Below, one piece after another: positions 3,387-14,499 of a DNA stretch of 64,000 nt. Numbering within the stretch: position 1 is the first letter of the stretch; each line of letters opens with the position of its first letter. The notes beneath the pieces are model-generated. The model was given only the letters and a program-made list of their open reading frames with translations, was not told the origin of the DNA and did no database searches. Location of the stretch: the NCBI RefSeq assembly GCF_017875315.1, contig NZ_JAGGMM010000001.1:930001-994000 (forward strand), read 5' to 3'. Source of the stretch: Methanomicrobium sp. W14 (GTDB lineage: Archaea; Halobacteriota; Methanomicrobia; Methanomicrobiales; Methanomicrobiaceae). The translations under genes were made by a program, and so were the position numbers.

Positions 3387-4706
3387 ATGAGTCGCATGAA
3401 ATTCACCGTTATATCTCCTGAAGTATACACATACGGGGCAATGCTTGTCGCAGGAATTCTAAAGGACAACGGGTATGAAGTGACTTTAAAAAGAAGACTT
3501 TCAGCGGAAAAAAAGAGTACGGTTATGCTGAGTCTTTATTCAACGCAGCACCTCCTTTCAGACGAGATTAAAGAATTCATATCAAAGCACAGAAAAAACG
3601 GTGGAACTGTATATATAGGCGGTCCGGTATCAGCGTACCCTGAGATGGTATTAGGTGAACTAAAACCCGATGCCGTAATTGCAGGGGAAGGAGAAAATTC
3701 CGTGCCTTATGTCGCGAAACTCGGCATATCATCCGGTACACCCGGACTTGCATACACAGGCCCGGATGGTAATATTATAAGAACAAAAGCAGTAGCGCCT
3801 GCGTCCATGAAACGCCCGCTTCCGCTGATTCCCGATGATATATCATCCCAGAGCATCAGGGGGGCATCAGCGTACATTGAGACTCACAGGGGATGCACAG
3901 GTGCATGCACATTCTGCCAGGTCCCCAGATATTTTGGAAGGGAGATCAGAAGCAGAGATCTTCCGGACATTCTTGAAGAAGTAAAAGAATTCAAAAAGCA
4001 CGGTGCAACGAGAATTTCCGTATCCGGCGGAACCGGCTCACTATACCAGTACAGGAACGGAAAAATAAACGAGGATGCATTCATTGAACTTCTCAGGGGA
4101 ATGGCAAAAATTATGGGGAAAAACAATGTCTCATCCCCTGATATCAGAGTAGACTGCATAAATGAAAGAATAGCACAGGCAATAAGGGAATACACAATAG
4201 GCTGGGTGTTTTTCGGCCTTGAGTCGGGAAGCGACAAAATACTTAAGGTGATGGGAAAAGGCGTATCCGTCAGCCAGGCGTCGGATGCCGTATACAGGTG
4301 CAGGGACTTTGGACTTAAAGTTGCGGGAAGTTTCATCGTCGGTCACCCTCTTGAGACTGCAGAGGACTTCGAAAAGACTAAGGATTTCATAACAGAACAC
4401 TGCCTTGACGATGTCTTCGTATCCATCGCAGAACCAATCCCAAAAACTCCGCTTGCAGAACTCGTCCTAAATACACCTAAAGAAAAGAGTCCTCTTTATA
4501 TGCCGCACAAAGGTGAATACATGGCGTTAAAGCTTACCGAAAGCGAAGCAAGGTCTTTTGACCTGCAGATGCACGCTGACATGTTCAAGCCGAATCTTCA
4601 TGTAGTGACTGACGAGATATTCAATGCATACCTTTTTGGAGTCAGAAAGGACGGAAAAGAGATAAGAGCCGCAACAGAGCTTCTTTTCAAATATTACGGG
4701 AAGTGA
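3387..4706 (+). CDS. B12-binding-type radical SAM protein
   Basis: A 439-residue protein with an N-terminal cobalamin-binding-like Rossmann domain (about 1-130; TYGAMLVAGILKDNGYEV, then VYIGGPVSAYP and AVIAGEGE, as in B12-binding radical SAM families) followed by a radical SAM barrel. The cluster motif is CTGACTFC (CxxxCxxC, about residue 170), followed by SVSGGTGSLY and FFGLESGSDKILKVMGKG, typical of SAM-binding and barrel strands. This architecture is known from conserved methanogen proteins (MJ_0865-like families); the substrate cannot be read from sequence. I prefer the ATG at 3387 over the TTG at 3363; the ATG at 3396 is also possible. The next gene follows after only 22 nt, so co-transcription is likely. 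Confidence 0.8.
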   Translation: MSRMKFTVISPEVYTYGAMLVAGILKDNGYEVTLKRRLSAEKKSTVMLSLYSTQHLLSDEIKEFISKHRKNGGTVYIGGPVSAYPEMVLGELKPDAVIAGEGENSVPYVAKLGISSGTPGLAYTGPDGNIIRTKAVAPASMKRPLPLIPDDISSQSIRGASAYIETHRGCTGACTFCQVPRYFGREIRSRDLPDILEEVKEFKKHGATRISVSGGTGSLYQYRNGKINEDAFIELLRGMAKIMGKNNVSSPDIRVDCINERIAQAIREYTIGWVFFGLESGSDKILKVMGKGVSVSQASDAVYRCRDFGLKVAGSFIVGHPLETAEDFEKTKDFITEHCLDDVFVSIAEPIPKTPLAELVLNTPKEKSPLYMPHKGEYMALKLTESEARSFDLQMHADMFKPNLHVVTDEIFNAYLFGVRKDGKEIRAATELLFKYYGK

Positions 4707-4728: not shown

Positions 4729-6636
4729 ATGGATTTCAAGATAAAAACCAAAATTCCTGAATTCCTCTCCGGCAGGATGAAATTTATCGGCCCTGGTCTT
4801 CTCCTTGCAATAGCAGCAGCAGGTGAAAGCGGGATCTCCGAAGCGCTGGAAATAGGTGCGCATTATCATTTTGCACTGATTTGGGTCATAGTTCTCACTC
4901 TTGTTTTTAAATTTGCATTCACAAACGGAATTGCAAGGTATACTCTTTCAACCGGAGATACTATCTTTGAGGGCCTTAAGACAATTCCCGGACCAAAAAA
5001 CTGGACTGTGGTCTTTGTAACGCTGATTTTCCTTCTTGAAATGTTTGCATTCGGGGGAATGCTTCTTTTTGGTGCGATATTTCTCGATTACTACCTTCCC
5101 GGTGTATACCTTGAAAATCTTCTTGCACTTCTGACTCTTGCAGTCACCCTGTTTCTTTTGTGGAAAGACTCATACGAAAGGGTGGAAAAGGTCGTTATAG
5201 CAATTGCAATCTGCCTGTTTGTCGGAATCGGCTACTGTCTTCTTGAATTCAGCCTGCCTTTCGGGTCCATCGCCCTGGGTCTTATCCCTAAAATCCCTCA
5301 CGGCTCTGTTCTATCCATAATGGCCCTTATGGGAGCAGTAGGTTCGGGCCTGAACCTCTTACTGTATTCGGTCTGGCTTTCGGAGAAAAGCCGGGGTGAA
5401 CACGGACCTGCATACTTCAGGCGCTATATAAGCATTGTAAACCTTGACATAGCATTCGCCTTTGTCATCGTGGCACTTATAACCATACTCTTTCTGACAC
5501 TCGGCGTAAGCGGTTTTGTCGTGTCATTCATAGGTCAGGGAGAAGAGCTGACCCTTGACGCAATTATTGTTCAGGTCCTCTATGTCCTATCAAACATACC
5601 ATTTGGGGACTCTTTTTTCCTGATATTCGGTTATCTCATAATGTTCGGTGCCACTATAACAGGAATGGACGGTCGTGCACGTGCAATATCCTCGGTCATA
5701 AAAAGCTCATCAAAAACGAAACTTTCTGAAATTCAGCTTTACAGGATAATTCTCGGGGTATTTACGGTCATTATTGCTTCGGCAATTTTCTGGGGTGAGC
5801 CTTCCGCAGTCATACATACAGTTTCAGCGGTCGCTGCGATAATGTTTGCACTTCTCGGGTTTATGCTGATATACATTGACCTGAATCTTCCGGAATACGC
5901 CCGCGGAAACAGGGTCTGGCTTCTTGTGATGACACTTGGAAGCTCGGTCTTCCTTTTGATGGCACTTATAATGGAAGGTTCTTTCATATCAGTAGGTCTT
6001 CCTTTAATCGAACGTCTTGTTCTTCTAATAGTCCCGGTATACATATTCATGAAGACAGACCTCTTTAAAAAATGCATCAACAAAAATCACGATATTTACG
6101 ACCTGCTCTGGGTCATACTGATATTCGGGGCAATATCTGTATACGGAACGTTCCGGGGCATTCCGGTTGACAACATAACAATAAACGTGGGACATGTCGG
6201 CCCGATGATTGCAGGATTTATATGCGGACCGTTTGCGGGCTTTATGGCAGGCGCTATAGGCGGTGCATACATTCTCAGCACAGGAGAAATGTATTCCGAA
6301 ATATTTGCCGCAGGAACTATATTTGCAGGCATATTTCCGGTACTTATGCTTAGACTCTGGAAGGAAAATCTCACATATTCCAGGGCGGCAGTTGTAGTAG
6401 TCATAGCAGAGGTCTTTAACTTTATCGTCATCCCGCTTTTATTCGGTGTCGGACTTACTGACACCACAGCACTTGTCAGGAAAAGTTTCCTTCCTACCCT
6501 TATTGCAAACATGACCGGCGTTTTAATATTTGTATATTTCCTTAAGGAAGGCCGCCACAGTAACTCCTTCGTGAGAGGTGAAAAGGGAAACCTGTTTAAA
6601 AAGAACAGCGAATGCCGGGGTGACTTAGAGAAATGA
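4729..6636 (+). CDS. NRAMP-like carrier fused to a LytS-type 5TM domain
   Basis: A 635-residue polytopic protein. Residues about 15-410 match the NRAMP (SLC11) fold by pattern: FIGPGLLLAIAAAGESG at TM1 and ALMGAVGSGLNLLLYS at TM6. The metal-binding TM1 motif DPGN is replaced by GESG and the TM6 MPH-type motif is absent, so Mn/Fe transport cannot be assumed. Residues about 455-605 form a second membrane module (GIPVDNITINVGHVGPMIAG, GPFAGFMAGAIGGAY) resembling the five-helix ligand-sensing domain of LytS-type kinases (5TMR_LYT). I chose the ATG at 4729 over the TTG at 4708. The stop overlaps the start of the downstream binding-protein gene (ATGA), so the two products probably act together. Confidence 0.65.
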   Translation: MDFKIKTKIPEFLSGRMKFIGPGLLLAIAAAGESGISEALEIGAHYHFALIWVIVLTLVFKFAFTNGIARYTLSTGDTIFEGLKTIPGPKNWTVVFVTLIFLLEMFAFGGMLLFGAIFLDYYLPGVYLENLLALLTLAVTLFLLWKDSYERVEKVVIAIAICLFVGIGYCLLEFSLPFGSIALGLIPKIPHGSVLSIMALMGAVGSGLNLLLYSVWLSEKSRGEHGPAYFRRYISIVNLDIAFAFVIVALITILFLTLGVSGFVVSFIGQGEELTLDAIIVQVLYVLSNIPFGDSFFLIFGYLIMFGATITGMDGRARAISSVIKSSSKTKLSEIQLYRIILGVFTVIIASAIFWGEPSAVIHTVSAVAAIMFALLGFMLIYIDLNLPEYARGNRVWLLVMTLGSSVFLLMALIMEGSFISVGLPLIERLVLLIVPVYIFMKTDLFKKCINKNHDIYDLLWVILIFGAISVYGTFRGIPVDNITINVGHVGPMIAGFICGPFAGFMAGAIGGAYILSTGEMYSEIFAAGTIFAGIFPVLMLRLWKENLTYSRAAVVVVIAEVFNFIVIPLLFGVGLTDTTALVRKSFLPTLIANMTGVLIFVYFLKEGRHSNSFVRGEKGNLFKKNSECRGDLEK

Positions 6637-7880
6637 GAACAAAATCCGTTCTGTTCTGTTTAAAAAATTCTGCTCCGACGGTACTGTTTCTCCTGATAAT
6701 CATGTCCGGATTTCTGTATTTGTACCTGTACAACTTCGGGCCCCCGCCGGAAAGCTACCCTGAAGGGAACAATTTGACCGTAGGTGCCATAGTTCCACTT
6801 TCGGGAAGCATGAAAACATACGGGACTGAAGTCAGACAGGGAATTGAAATGGCAGTATCGGACATCAACAAAGAAGGCGGCATAAAGGGCAAAAATGTCA
6901 CGGTTGAATATTTCGACAACCTCGGAAGTTCAAACCTCGCCATATTCGGGTTCAAAAAATTCTGCGAAGACGGCATACCTGTTGTAATCGGACCTGTTTC
7001 AAGTTCGGCGGCACTGGCTGTCGCCCCGGTTGCAGAAGAAGAAAAAACGGTCATGATATCTCCTTCAGCAACAAACCCCGGCCTTACAAAATATCCGGAT
7101 TATGTTTTCAGGACAATCTCATCCGATGCCTACCAGGGCAAAGGAATAGCAAAAGTGCTTATGACCGTACACCCTGAAGTAAAGACCGCGGCTGTAATTT
7201 ATATTAACACATCATACGGAAAGAGCCTCAACAGCTCATTCTGCACATGGTTTCCAAAAGCAGGCGGGCAGGTGATATTCTGTGAAAGCTACGAGGAGGG
7301 AGGGACTGATTACTACTACCTTGTCGATGAAATTTCAGAAGCAAATCCCGATGCGGTGGTGGTGCTCGGAACTTTGCAGGATGCAGAGACTATCCTCAAA
7401 GATGCTTCTGAAAAAAAGCTTGACGTGGTCTGGTTCGGATCGGAGGGACTCATAAACGACGGACTGTACGAATATGCAGGCGAATATGTCAACGGAATGT
7501 ACGCACTCATGCAGTCAAGCCAGATACAGTCCGGGACATTCATTAAAAGATACGAGTCTTTGTACAATACAACCACAATTGACTGGCCTGTGTCATACGG
7601 CTACGACACCATGCAGATTATCGCGGAAGCTCTCAGGGCCTCGGATTACAACGGAAAAAGTATAAGCGGGTCACTGAAAAGAATCAGGCACATGGGGCTC
7701 TGCGGCCCGAAAGTATTCGATGAAAACGGAGACATCCCTCCTGCATATGATATTATGAGGATAGAAGACGGAAAATGGGTACGCGTAAAATGGAACGAAG
7801 TTGTATTCAGCGATGATGACGAGGATGAAGAAGAAATCCTTGGAAATGTCCTCAAATCGTATTCATCAGAGAATGTGTAA
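6633..7880 (+). CDS. Membrane-anchored LivJ-type ligand-binding protein
   Basis: A 415-residue protein with an N-terminal TM anchor (about 12-31) and a type I periplasmic-binding fold of the branched-chain amino acid/amide family. The family opening is clear (TVGAIVPLSGSMKTYG, then GIEMAVSDINKEGGIKGKNVTVEYFDN), with later VVIGPVSSSAALAVAP and MISPSATNPGLT. No Liv permease or ATPase genes are nearby. The start overlaps the stop of the NRAMP-like/5TM gene by 4 nt, so translation is coupled. It may deliver or sense a ligand for that membrane protein rather than serve an ABC transporter; that is inferred. The C-terminus has an unusual acidic run (SDDDEDEEE). Confidence 0.8.
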   Translation: MRTKSVLFCLKNSAPTVLFLLIIMSGFLYLYLYNFGPPPESYPEGNNLTVGAIVPLSGSMKTYGTEVRQGIEMAVSDINKEGGIKGKNVTVEYFDNLGSSNLAIFGFKKFCEDGIPVVIGPVSSSAALAVAPVAEEEKTVMISPSATNPGLTKYPDYVFRTISSDAYQGKGIAKVLMTVHPEVKTAAVIYINTSYGKSLNSSFCTWFPKAGGQVIFCESYEEGGTDYYYLVDEISEANPDAVVVLGTLQDAETILKDASEKKLDVVWFGSEGLINDGLYEYAGEYVNGMYALMQSSQIQSGTFIKRYESLYNTTTIDWPVSYGYDTMQIIAEALRASDYNGKSISGSLKRIRHMGLCGPKVFDENGDIPPAYDIMRIEDGKWVRVKWNEVVFSDDDEDEEEILGNVLKSYSSENV

Positions 7881-11953: not shown

Positions 11954-12775
11954 TCACGCTGCCTCATGCGGCCTGAACCTGAAATGTTTCAGAAAAACCG
12001 CACATACATATACGGCTACACTTATGAGAATAATCGTTGCGCCTGAAGGAACGTCCAGATAATACGAGAGAAATATCCCGGACGTCGTGAAAAATATCCC
12101 TGTCAGAGACGACAGGTAAAACATCTTTTTCAGATCACGTGTAAATTCACGCGATATCGCGGCAGGAAGCGTCAAAAGCGCTATTACCAGAATTATTCCA
12201 ACGACCTGGATAAGCATGACGACGGTCACTGCAACAAGAACGAGAAGAAGGGCCATCATCTTCTCAGAGGGTATGTTCATGACCTTCGAATACTCTTCGT
12301 CGAATGTGACAGACAAAAGCTGGTTGTAAAACAGCCAGATAACGGTAAGAATCAGCACGAGAAGAAGGGCCATAAGAAAGAGATCGCTAACCGGAACGAG
12401 CAGTATGTTCCCGAACAGATAACCGAGAAGATCAGGGGCAAAACCCGGGGTCAGGTAAACGAACATCACTCCGAGGGCCATCCCGAACGCCCAGACCGCA
12501 CCTACCAGGGTATCCAGGTGCTGGTGCGCCACTCTTCTTATTCTGGATATGACGGCAGCCGTTGCAACCGAGAATATCATCGCTCCTGCAATCGGATCGA
12601 AGCCAAAGAAATACCCAAGACCGATTCCACCGAATGCAGCGTGCGAAATTCCTCCAGACATGGACACCATCCGCTTTACAACAACGAAGCTGCCTATAAT
12701 ACCGCATGCAATACTCGCCATAACTCCTGCGAGAAGTGCGTTTCTGAAGAACTCATAATAAAGAAGGGACAGCAC
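11954..12775 (-). CDS. znuB: Zinc/manganese-type ABC transporter permease
   Basis: A 273-residue ABC-3 family permease with about eight TM helices. The family pattern is clear: MASIACGIIGSFVVVKRMVSMSGGISHAAFGG near the N-terminus (quoted as pattern only), QVVGIILVIALLTLPAAISREF near residue 195, and a C-terminal SYYLDVPSGATIILISV. It is the pore of a metal importer and the last gene of a znuA-znuC-znuB operon, separated from the ATPase gene by 2 nt. The distinction between Zn2+ and Mn2+ cannot be made from the permease. Confidence 0.9.
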   Translation of the reverse strand: MLSLLYYEFFRNALLAGVMASIACGIIGSFVVVKRMVSMSGGISHAAFGGIGLGYFFGFDPIAGAMIFSVATAAVISRIRRVAHQHLDTLVGAVWAFGMALGVMFVYLTPGFAPDLLGYLFGNILLVPVSDLFLMALLLVLILTVIWLFYNQLLSVTFDEEYSKVMNIPSEKMMALLLVLVAVTVVMLIQVVGIILVIALLTLPAAISREFTRDLKKMFYLSSLTGIFFTTSGIFLSYYLDVPSGATIILISVAVYVCAVFLKHFRFRPHEAA

Positions 12776-12777
12776 CG

Positions 12778-13575
12778 CTACTCATCCTCCTTCGCGCTTT
12801 TTACTTTCAGATTCTCGTGCTTCTCCAGAACCCTATGGGGGAGACCATGTGCAATCAGATCGACAGGGCACTTGTAAGCGTCAAGGATCATGTCGCTTGT
12901 AATTTCGTTGTCGTTGTGCGTATACAGTTTCCTGTTAAGGCAGGCTACGACATCGACTCCCGATGACAATACTCCTATGTCGTGGGTTATAAGAACTACA
13001 GTCATTTTCCTCTGCAGCTCTGTTAATATGTCGTTAAACTTCTCCTCGGTAGGTGAGTCGACATATACGGTCGGCTCGTCCAGAATAAGAACCCGGGGAT
13101 TTCCTACGATCGCTCGGGCGATAATCGCCCTCTGCTGCTCTCCTCCGGAAAGTTCCCCAAGACCTCTTTTCGAAAGGTCAGATATCCCGAGCTTCTCCAT
13201 TGCCTCCGCTGCAAGTTTACGGTCGTTTTCCGAGAATCTTTTCCTGATTCCACCAATATGCCCAAGTCTTCCCGTAAGAACCATGTCTCCTACGGTTACC
13301 GGATAGCTGAAATCGAAGGTGTGGAACTGCGGGACATATCCCAAAAGAAAACGGTTTTTTTCGGGGGGGTCACCGTAGATTTCAACCCTGCCTTTATCAG
13401 GTTTTAAAAGGCCGAGAATCACCTTTATAAGGGTGGTTTTACCCCCGCCGTTAGGTCCTATAACAGCGTAGAACTTTCCGTCATCCACTTTCATGGAGAT
13501 GTCGTCAAGCACTTTCTGTCCTTCACGGTAAACGGTTATATTTCGCAAATCTATTGCGGGTACTTCCATCCGCAC
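12778..13575 (-). CDS. znuC: Zinc/manganese-type ABC transporter ATPase
   Basis: A 265-residue ATPase with Walker A GPNGGGKTTL (about residue 41), Q-loop YVPQFHTFDF, signature LSGGEQQRAIIARA (about 142), Walker B VLILDEPTVYVD (about 164) and switch His in LITHDIG. FDFSYPVTVGDMVLTGRLG after the Q-loop is typical of metal-uptake (ZnuC/MntB-like) ATPases. The ATG directly abuts the znuA stop; an in-frame ATG two codons later is an alternative. It energises the ZnuB pore. Confidence 0.92.
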   Translation of the reverse strand: MRMEVPAIDLRNITVYREGQKVLDDISMKVDDGKFYAVIGPNGGGKTTLIKVILGLLKPDKGRVEIYGDPPEKNRFLLGYVPQFHTFDFSYPVTVGDMVLTGRLGHIGGIRKRFSENDRKLAAEAMEKLGISDLSKRGLGELSGGEQQRAIIARAIVGNPRVLILDEPTVYVDSPTEEKFNDILTELQRKMTVVLITHDIGVLSSGVDVVACLNRKLYTHNDNEITSDMILDAYKCPVDLIAHGLPHRVLEKHENLKVKSAKEDE

Positions 13576-14499
13576 TTACTCCGATGCAAAGGCCTTTGCA
13601 ACAGATTTCATGTTTTCAAGATATTCCTCTGCAAGAGGATCTATCATAATTACTTTTCCGCCGATTGCATCCGCAATAACTTCAGCACTCTTTGTGCTGT
13701 ACTCCGGAGACGCAAACACAACCGTCACGTTGTTTTCTTCCGCCTGATCAATAATCTGTTTCAGTGCCGCAGGAGACGGCTCCTTTCCCTCACTCTCTAT
13801 TGAGATCTGGTTAAGCGAATAGTCTCTTGCAAAGTAAGACCATGCCGGATGGTAGACCATTACCGTTTTGCCTGAACTGTTCGAAAGCTCTTCGGATATG
13901 TTTTCATCCAGAGCATCAAGTTTTGACTCATAGTTCTGAAGGTTTTCCCTGAAATAGTCCGCATTCTCAGGGCTTATCTCACAAAGACCGTCACATATGT
14001 TATCAGCCATTACTTTTGCGTTTTTAAGCGACAGCCATATGTGCGGGTTTCCGGACTGTTCGGTCCCGTTGCCTTCATTTATAAGCTCTATTCCGTCACA
14101 GCAGTCGACTATCTTCATACCTGAATTAACGCCTTTTATTTTGTCCATCCACGCCTGTTCAAACTCGATTCCAGAACCGAGTTCCGCATACATGTCAGCA
14201 TCAGAAAGTGAAACGAGCTGCCCCGAGGTAAGTTCATACGTATGCGGACTTGAACCCGGCGGGACCATCACCGTCACGTTGACAAGGTCTTTTCCGATTG
14301 CCTCTACGAATTCCTTTTCAGGAAGAATTGATACTGCAACAGAAATTGCAGACTCATTTTCGACATTAAGATTCTCTCCGGTCTGATCAGGACCGGTTAC
14401 ATTGCCTGAAACATTGCCGGTGCATCCACAGGATACGGTCATTAAAGTCAATGTAACAAGCAAAAAAGCCAAAAAGCCAGTTTTAACAGAATTCTGCAT
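13576..14499 (-). CDS. znuA: Zinc/manganese-binding lipoprotein of ABC transporter
   Basis: A 307-residue cluster A-I metal-binding protein. An N-terminal hydrophobic signal ends in a lipobox-like TVSCGC (about 21-26), so it is probably lipid-anchored. The expected metal ligands are present: His in PPGSSPHTYELT, His in NPHIWLSLKNAKVMA, His in MVYHPAWSYFARDY, and a late Asp in IMIDPL. There is no His-rich loop, so it may be either a Zn or an Mn protein. The start has GAGG about 9 nt upstream and a TATA-like ATATAG about 65-75 nt upstream on the minus strand. Confidence 0.9.
   Translation of the reverse strand: MQNSVKTGFLAFLLVTLTLMTVSCGCTGNVSGNVTGPDQTGENLNVENESAISVAVSILPEKEFVEAIGKDLVNVTVMVPPGSSPHTYELTSGQLVSLSDADMYAELGSGIEFEQAWMDKIKGVNSGMKIVDCCDGIELINEGNGTEQSGNPHIWLSLKNAKVMADNICDGLCEISPENADYFRENLQNYESKLDALDENISEELSNSSGKTVMVYHPAWSYFARDYSLNQISIESEGKEPSPAALKQIIDQAEENNVTVVFASPEYSTKSAEVIADAIGGKVIMIDPLAEEYLENMKSVAKAFASE

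Follow-up and report, generated by a model that had tools for sequence, protein, structure and literature searches.

The carrier and binding-protein locus

The DNA analysed here, referred to below as the window, is a stretch of 64,000 nucleotides from the archaeon Methanomicrobium sp. W14 (G000 in our genome set). Between positions 4729 and 7880 it holds two adjoining genes, one for a carrier related to the Nramp family that ends in a five-transmembrane (5TM) domain, and the other for a LivJ-type, membrane-anchored solute-binding protein (SBP). An earlier note, made from the sequence alone, had proposed that the carrier has lost the DPGN and MPH metal motifs and gained a sensor-type membrane domain, that it is translated together with an SBP lacking ATP-binding cassette (ABC) partners, and that the two may represent a new kind of SBP-dependent secondary transporter or a transporter-sensor. 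The features of the pair are as follows (TM, transmembrane helix).

4729 (ATG)..6636, + strand: Nramp-like carrier with C-terminal 5TM-5TMR_LYT domain, 635 amino acids (open reading frame, Pfam, NCBIfam and PDB profile); carrier part at residues 1 to ~420, followed by the part with a predicted S-component fold (helix H0 at ~420-447, core at ~455-606)
4708, + strand: alternative TTG start of the carrier
4822..4833, + strand: codons of G32-E33-S34-G35 in the TM1 core, altered from the DPGN of metal Nramps (profile alignment)
5344..5352, + strand: codons of S206-G207-L208 in the TM6 core, altered from the MPH of metal Nramps (profile alignment, 29-carrier alignment)
6184..6192, + strand: codons of N486-V487-G488, where what is left of the 5TM domain's NxR ligand motif has lost its Arg
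6633..7880, + strand: LivJ-type membrane-anchored SBP (Pfam PF13458, LivJ alignment, N-terminal hydrophobic segment)

Read directly from the DNA, the carrier stop and the SBP start overlap as ATGA at 6633-6636, with GGGGTGA upstream, and this overlap together with the N-terminal anchor of the SBP bears out the proposed translation of the carrier with a membrane-anchored partner.

A carrier of Nramp kinship with an altered metal site

The carrier matches Nramp (PF01566) at residues 39-376 with 55.6 bits (Pfam; cut-off 29.8) and the NCBIfam model NF037982 with 65.4 bits (cut-off 50), and its nearest solved structure in a PDB profile search is the Nramp 10ky (E 5.3e-17). With PF01566 and the C-terminal PF07694 match described below both above their cut-offs, the proposed fusion is real. 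The loss of both motifs is equally clear in the profile alignment with 10ky, which is gap-free over these stretches and places G32-E33-S34-G35 opposite DPGN and S206-G207-L208 opposite MPH. The TM1 core reads G-E-[SAH]-G in 29/29 aligned carriers, and G32, E33 and G35 are invariant across the 32 carriers that are paired with an SBP.

In metal-transporting Nramps the site consists of DxxN in TM1 and (A/C)xxM in TM6, with variants such as DxxN-AxxT and DxxG-TxxA/T, and its Asp is retained even by the Mg2+ and Al3+ branches (DxxG, DxxN) (PMC8806188). In the carrier, DxxN/AxxM has become GxxG/AxxS (A203xxS206 in the window), and GxxG is found in every one of the 29 aligned sequences. Because the Asp that even the Mg2+ and Al3+ branches keep is Gly throughout, the carrier, to judge from its sequence, is derived from Nramp and by this metal-site test lies outside the branches that bear the site. 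Mean column conservation among the 32 paired carriers is highest in TM1 (0.85), TM2 (0.81) and TM6 (0.77), compared with 0.58 for the 5TM core, and just 4 of their 58 invariant positions fall in the 5TM domain, a pattern that fits a working carrier for another substrate. These findings are also a warning about annotation, as the archaeal proteins in question are automatically labelled "Nramp family divalent metal transporter" and here lack the metal site.

An orphan binding protein of the LivJ type

The SBP matches Peripla_BP_6 (PF13458) with 158.3 bits (Pfam; cut-off 31.7) and, in a profile search, LivJ 1z15 with an E value of 8.3e-47. A hydrophobic N-terminal anchor is present in the window SBP and in 32/32 paired SBPs, 3 of which have a lipobox. 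LivJ residues S79, T102 and E226, which we take to grip the amino-acid backbone, align with S124, T147 and E271 of the window SBP; among the 32 paired SBPs these positions hold Ser in 31, Thr in all and Glu or Asp in all, while the position of LivJ Y202 is variable. The simplest guess from these positions is an amino-acid-like ligand with a different side chain.

The window genome, which is 99% complete, encodes one Peripla_BP_6 protein in all and has no match to a LivH/LivM-type permease (PF02653, BPD_transp_2), in agreement with the earlier note on the absence of ABC partners. Such a permease is above cut-off in none of the 37 pair-bearing genomes scanned (20 and 17 from two scans, with G015 and the broken G027 counted among the 20), G013 having one weak sub-threshold match; it is present in 14 of the other 40 genomes scanned alongside the 20. 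A Fisher p of 0.0024 for the mutual exclusion of pair and LIV permease is descriptive, since relatedness is ignored. A canonical LIV ABC system was thus rejected for want of a PF02653 permease in the window genome and the 37, and the SBP looks, from its sequence and these scans, like an orphan of the ABC world. Genome G011, which has no LIV permease either, encodes further orphan LivJ-like SBPs (L149:6795-9080 and L150:7746-8855): one protein consists of two tandem SBP domains, and one SBP adjoins a membrane sensor-like gene.

The C-terminal domain

Residues 444-606 of the carrier match 5TM-5TMR_LYT (PF07694) with 88.3 bits (Pfam; cut-off 24.6), the similarity whose absence had been set beforehand as grounds for refuting the earlier note. 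In an AlphaFold2 model computed from three sequences, residues 451-614 have a mean predicted local distance difference test score (pLDDT) of about 56-83 per ten-residue block, and the 18 solved chains that match this part best belong without exception to ECF S-components or complexes of these (Z 8.7-13.3, aligned over 146-171 residues). On this model, the "5TM" domain combines an S-component fold with an extra helix, H0; the S-component fold of 5TMR domains was shown earlier (PMC11109136).

In the pyruvate receptor BtsS, the ligand is held by Arg72, Arg99, Cys110 and Ser113 (PMC10653868). We matched these positions by eye, across the 29 aligned carriers, to an NxR motif, the next Arg, and a Cys 11 residues further on. 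NxR is kept in 19 of the 29, the second Arg in 25 and the Cys in 20. The window protein has none of the three, nor have the relatives closest to it (L053, L054, L055), and the window domain therefore probably no longer binds a pyruvate-like ligand. Its H0 helix retains a polar E-R pair, and in a Pfam scan the window protein shows no cytosolic or soluble domain that could serve as output.

Conservation of the pairing

Carrier and SBP genes are adjacent in 36/232 Methanomicrobiales genomes from three families, so that the two-gene pair recurs in relatives as the earlier note had asked: 17 belong to the window's own family, 18 to genus g21 (family f6), and one is G182 (family f5). The SBP lies downstream of the carrier in 35/36, and G182 has the inverted order, SBP first, with a 75-base gap. 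Of the SBPs scoring at least 330 bits, 32/33 adjoin a carrier; the 33rd belongs to G015, where carrier and SBP both stand at contig ends. Contig ends also cut the G026 carrier and one of two G431 carriers, and the G027 SBP is broken. With the earliest possible start codon taken as the gene start, the overlap is exactly 4 bases, of the ATGA type, in 11/25 measured pairs. Pairwise distances of carriers and SBPs correlate with r 0.96 over 25 pairs (reached in 0/2000 permutations; relatedness not removed), as co-inheritance predicts. The surroundings of the pair are of at least two types that differ between genera, and the pair itself stays constant. A separate contig scan for window-like loci yielded two loci only, because its patterns suit close relatives; a relative, L031 from a Methanomicrobiaceae metagenome-assembled genome, has a carrier 76% identical to that of the window.

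In phylogenetic trees, the paired SBPs fall into a single group that excludes 15 other LivJ-like SBP rows (14 distinct) of the order, and the paired carriers are likewise grouped together, separate from 12 SBP-less carriers (support 91/99). The SBP tree was built without >350-bit duplicates of paired SBPs, and hence without the G015 SBP and the G011 double-SBP protein (L079), and the carrier tree excluded L159. Since each partner groups together in this way, the pairing probably has a single origin, or else other lineages have lost it.

Relatives without the binding protein

The SBP-less relatives vary in architecture. Nramp followed by two 5TM domains occurs in G458 and G459, and the same arrangement with a soluble C-terminal tail of ~290 residues in L155 (G516), L156 (G523), L157 (G514) and L158 (G520). 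A protein of 1126 residues from outside Methanomicrobiales (G320, L130:7328-10708) carries three tandem 5TM domains, with no SBP near its gene. Carriers without any 5TM domain also exist, for example in G224, G403 and G530. By their architecture, the tailed two-5TM proteins are possible transporter-derived receptors, and the paired, SBP-less, multi-5TM and soluble-tail forms together offer a clean comparison for the exchange of parts between transporters and receptors.

The soluble tail was also considered as a worn-down histidine kinase, an idea left unsupported by a profile comparison with 22 kinase rows, which aligned 27 columns at 4% probability. The tails have no Pfam match above cut-off (the best, FAD-oxidase_C, reaches 18.8 bits against 21.2 in one of the four) and a PDB search gave no credible match. 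A gene of 327 residues adjoins all four tailed carriers and, in the L156 copy, was assigned by Pfam to the phosphofructokinase family. In L037 (G032) and L140 (G321) two adjoining genes together encode an SBP-less carrier, with the break at about residue 245-265; the two open reading frames of L037 overlap by 4 bases, so this may be a real gene fission and not decay. At L141:7166-10204 (G308), a stand-alone 5TM protein lies divergent from a fusion protein of an SBP domain with Peptidase_C13.

A proposed uptake system and its alternatives

We propose, with moderate confidence, that the pair is an SBP-dependent secondary uptake system in which an amino-acid-like solute enters through a carrier of putative LeuT fold. 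The surface-anchored LivJ-type SBP would capture the solute and hand it, on contact, to the Nramp-derived carrier, whose divalent-metal site is dismantled and whose TM1 core holds the invariant Glu33; the carrier would then move it inward, presumably on an ion gradient. The C-terminal domain with its predicted S-component fold may serve as an accessory for assembly, its H0 helix carrying the polar pair through which LytS-type proteins are proposed to dimerise; where relatives have an intact 5TM pocket, the domain may also gate transport in response to a small carboxylate. If so, the pair would be a counter-example to the view that SBPs need elevator-type carriers and would bring together, in a module of two genes, three folds that handle substrates, a possibility that we put forward tentatively and hold somewhat less firmly than the uptake function itself.

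Several observations weigh against this proposal. The 12 SBP-less carriers in the carrier tree share this architecture, which shows that such a carrier can do without an SBP, and the multi-5TM and soluble-tail forms among the SBP-less relatives look like receptors in their domain layout. Both AlphaFold2 predictions for the carrier half, each made from three sequences, have pLDDT <50 nearly throughout, and because of this its putative LeuT fold is assigned from sequence; solved Nramp chains are absent among the structure matches listed for this half, an absence that the low pLDDT makes uninformative. The order-wide census turned up no protein in which SBP and carrier are fused. Finally, an SBP-dependent carrier with the LeuT fold would be without precedent, because the known ones are thought to be of the elevator type (PMC12344293).

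The serious rival is sensing. Here the pair would be a transport-free receptor, or transceptor, in which the carrier and S-component domains sense, the SBP acts as co-receptor, and the signal goes to a kinase or transporter that is not linked to the pair. In LytS-type kinases the 5TM domain is the receptor part (PMC10653868, PMC11109136), most of the aligned carriers keep the pocket residues, SBP-less relatives carry two 5TM domains, two and a soluble tail, or three, and at L141, in the same order, a LivJ-like SBP is fused to Peptidase_C13. However, the window protein has no cytosolic domain, no kinase recurs beside the pair in the paired loci inspected for surroundings, the window lineage has lost the pocket residues while retaining the carrier core and the SBP, and conservation is concentrated in TM1, TM2 and TM6 of the carrier. 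We regard this reading as unlikely, if well above the two that follow. The sensor part of the earlier proposal fares accordingly: it is weakened for the window protein, whose lineage has lost the 5TM ligand-site residues, and it is strengthened for the SBP-less multi-5TM and soluble-tail relatives.

It is improbable that SBP and carrier are mere neighbours with separate jobs, placed together for the convenience of an operon, given a pair that persists in three families through differing surroundings and one inversion of order, that overlaps by 4 bases in many of its copies, and whose SBP has no LivH/LivM permease to serve instead; chance adjacency is disfavoured by the genome census (36/232; 32/33 SBPs beside a carrier). 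Least probable of all, by a little, is a carrier that still transports divalent metal, as automatic annotation has it, with the SBP and the 5TM domain in regulatory roles: the NF037982 name and a frequent zinc/manganese-type ABC cluster downstream (described below) would suit it, but the Asp and the AxxM Met of the site are gone and the SBP is of an amino-acid-binding type, so that a metal importer is disfavoured.

Neighbouring genes

One further gene lies immediately upstream of the pair.

3387..4706, + strand: radical SAM B12-binding protein, TIGR04014, methyl-coenzyme M reductase glutamine C-methyltransferase (NCBIfam 650.7 bits, cut-off 360)

Its 3' end is 22 bases upstream of the carrier ATG. 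The TIGR04014 cluster stands directly upstream of the pair in 7/19 paired loci, the window included, and not in the others, and the gene is probably no part of the carrier-SBP module. At 11954-14499 the window has zinc/manganese-type ABC genes (permease, ATPase and binding protein) that are convergent with the pair, and 8 other paired loci have the same cluster a short way downstream (9/19 with the window). Between 50000 and 64000 the G+C fraction falls from ~0.45 to ~0.35, and the genes there resemble those of surface polysaccharide synthesis, with sugar-nucleotide enzymes, glycosyltransferases and a flippase-like protein.

Comparison with known systems

The Nramp-5TM fusion is already known, because NRAMP-5TMR fusions, mostly archaeal, were reported in 2024 with the same domain order as in the window carrier and were described as the sole integral membrane transporter fused to a 5TMR fold (PMC11109136). 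That report interprets the fusion as metal transport joined to sensing, and its main text has 0 occurrences of terms relating to binding proteins, operons or genomic context; here, the carrier comes with an SBP partner, its metal site is gone, and variants with several 5TM domains or a soluble tail occur. Our literature searches found no published report of the SBP pairing, the orphan status, the metal-site loss or the variants.

The pair shares parts with several established families and differs from each. Set beside SLC11/NRAMP (MntH, NRMT, NRAT), the window carrier is above the family profile cut-off and has its closest solved structure in 10ky, but it bears GxxG/AxxS in place of DxxN/(A/C)xxM, an extra C-terminal domain and an SBP partner. 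With LytS/BtsS receptors it shares the 5TM-5TMR domain, the predicted S-component fold and the H0 helix; unlike them, it carries the domain at the C-terminus, has no kinase and has lost the pyruvate-site residues. LIV/HAAT-type ABC importers have the same type of SBP, which in the window pair comes without LivH/LivM permease. TRAP and TTT systems likewise combine an SBP with an ion-driven carrier (PMC12344293), and differ in that DctQ/DctM and TctA/TctB are absent from both window proteins in a Pfam scan.

The hallmark of an SBP-dependent secondary transporter, an SBP conserved with and translationally coupled to its carrier, is present in the pair, and the closest precedent in design is TAXI-GltS of Bordetella pertussis, described in 2025, in which an SBP without its usual membrane partner is translationally coupled to a secondary carrier and the ligand is of the amino-acid class (PMC12344293). 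There, GltS is modelled as elevator-type, the TAXI protein is an SBP of the TRAP type and the ligand was measured, whereas the window pair would combine a Nramp/LeuT-type carrier with a LivJ-type SBP, and the census gave no fusion of the two. The same report names TRAP and TTT as the sole earlier SBP-dependent secondary transporters, suspects that an elevator mechanism is necessary, and asks why SBPs pair with so few secondary transporters, a proposal that further classes would test (PMC12344293). If the pair described here is SBP-dependent, it would provide such a test with a carrier of a different family.

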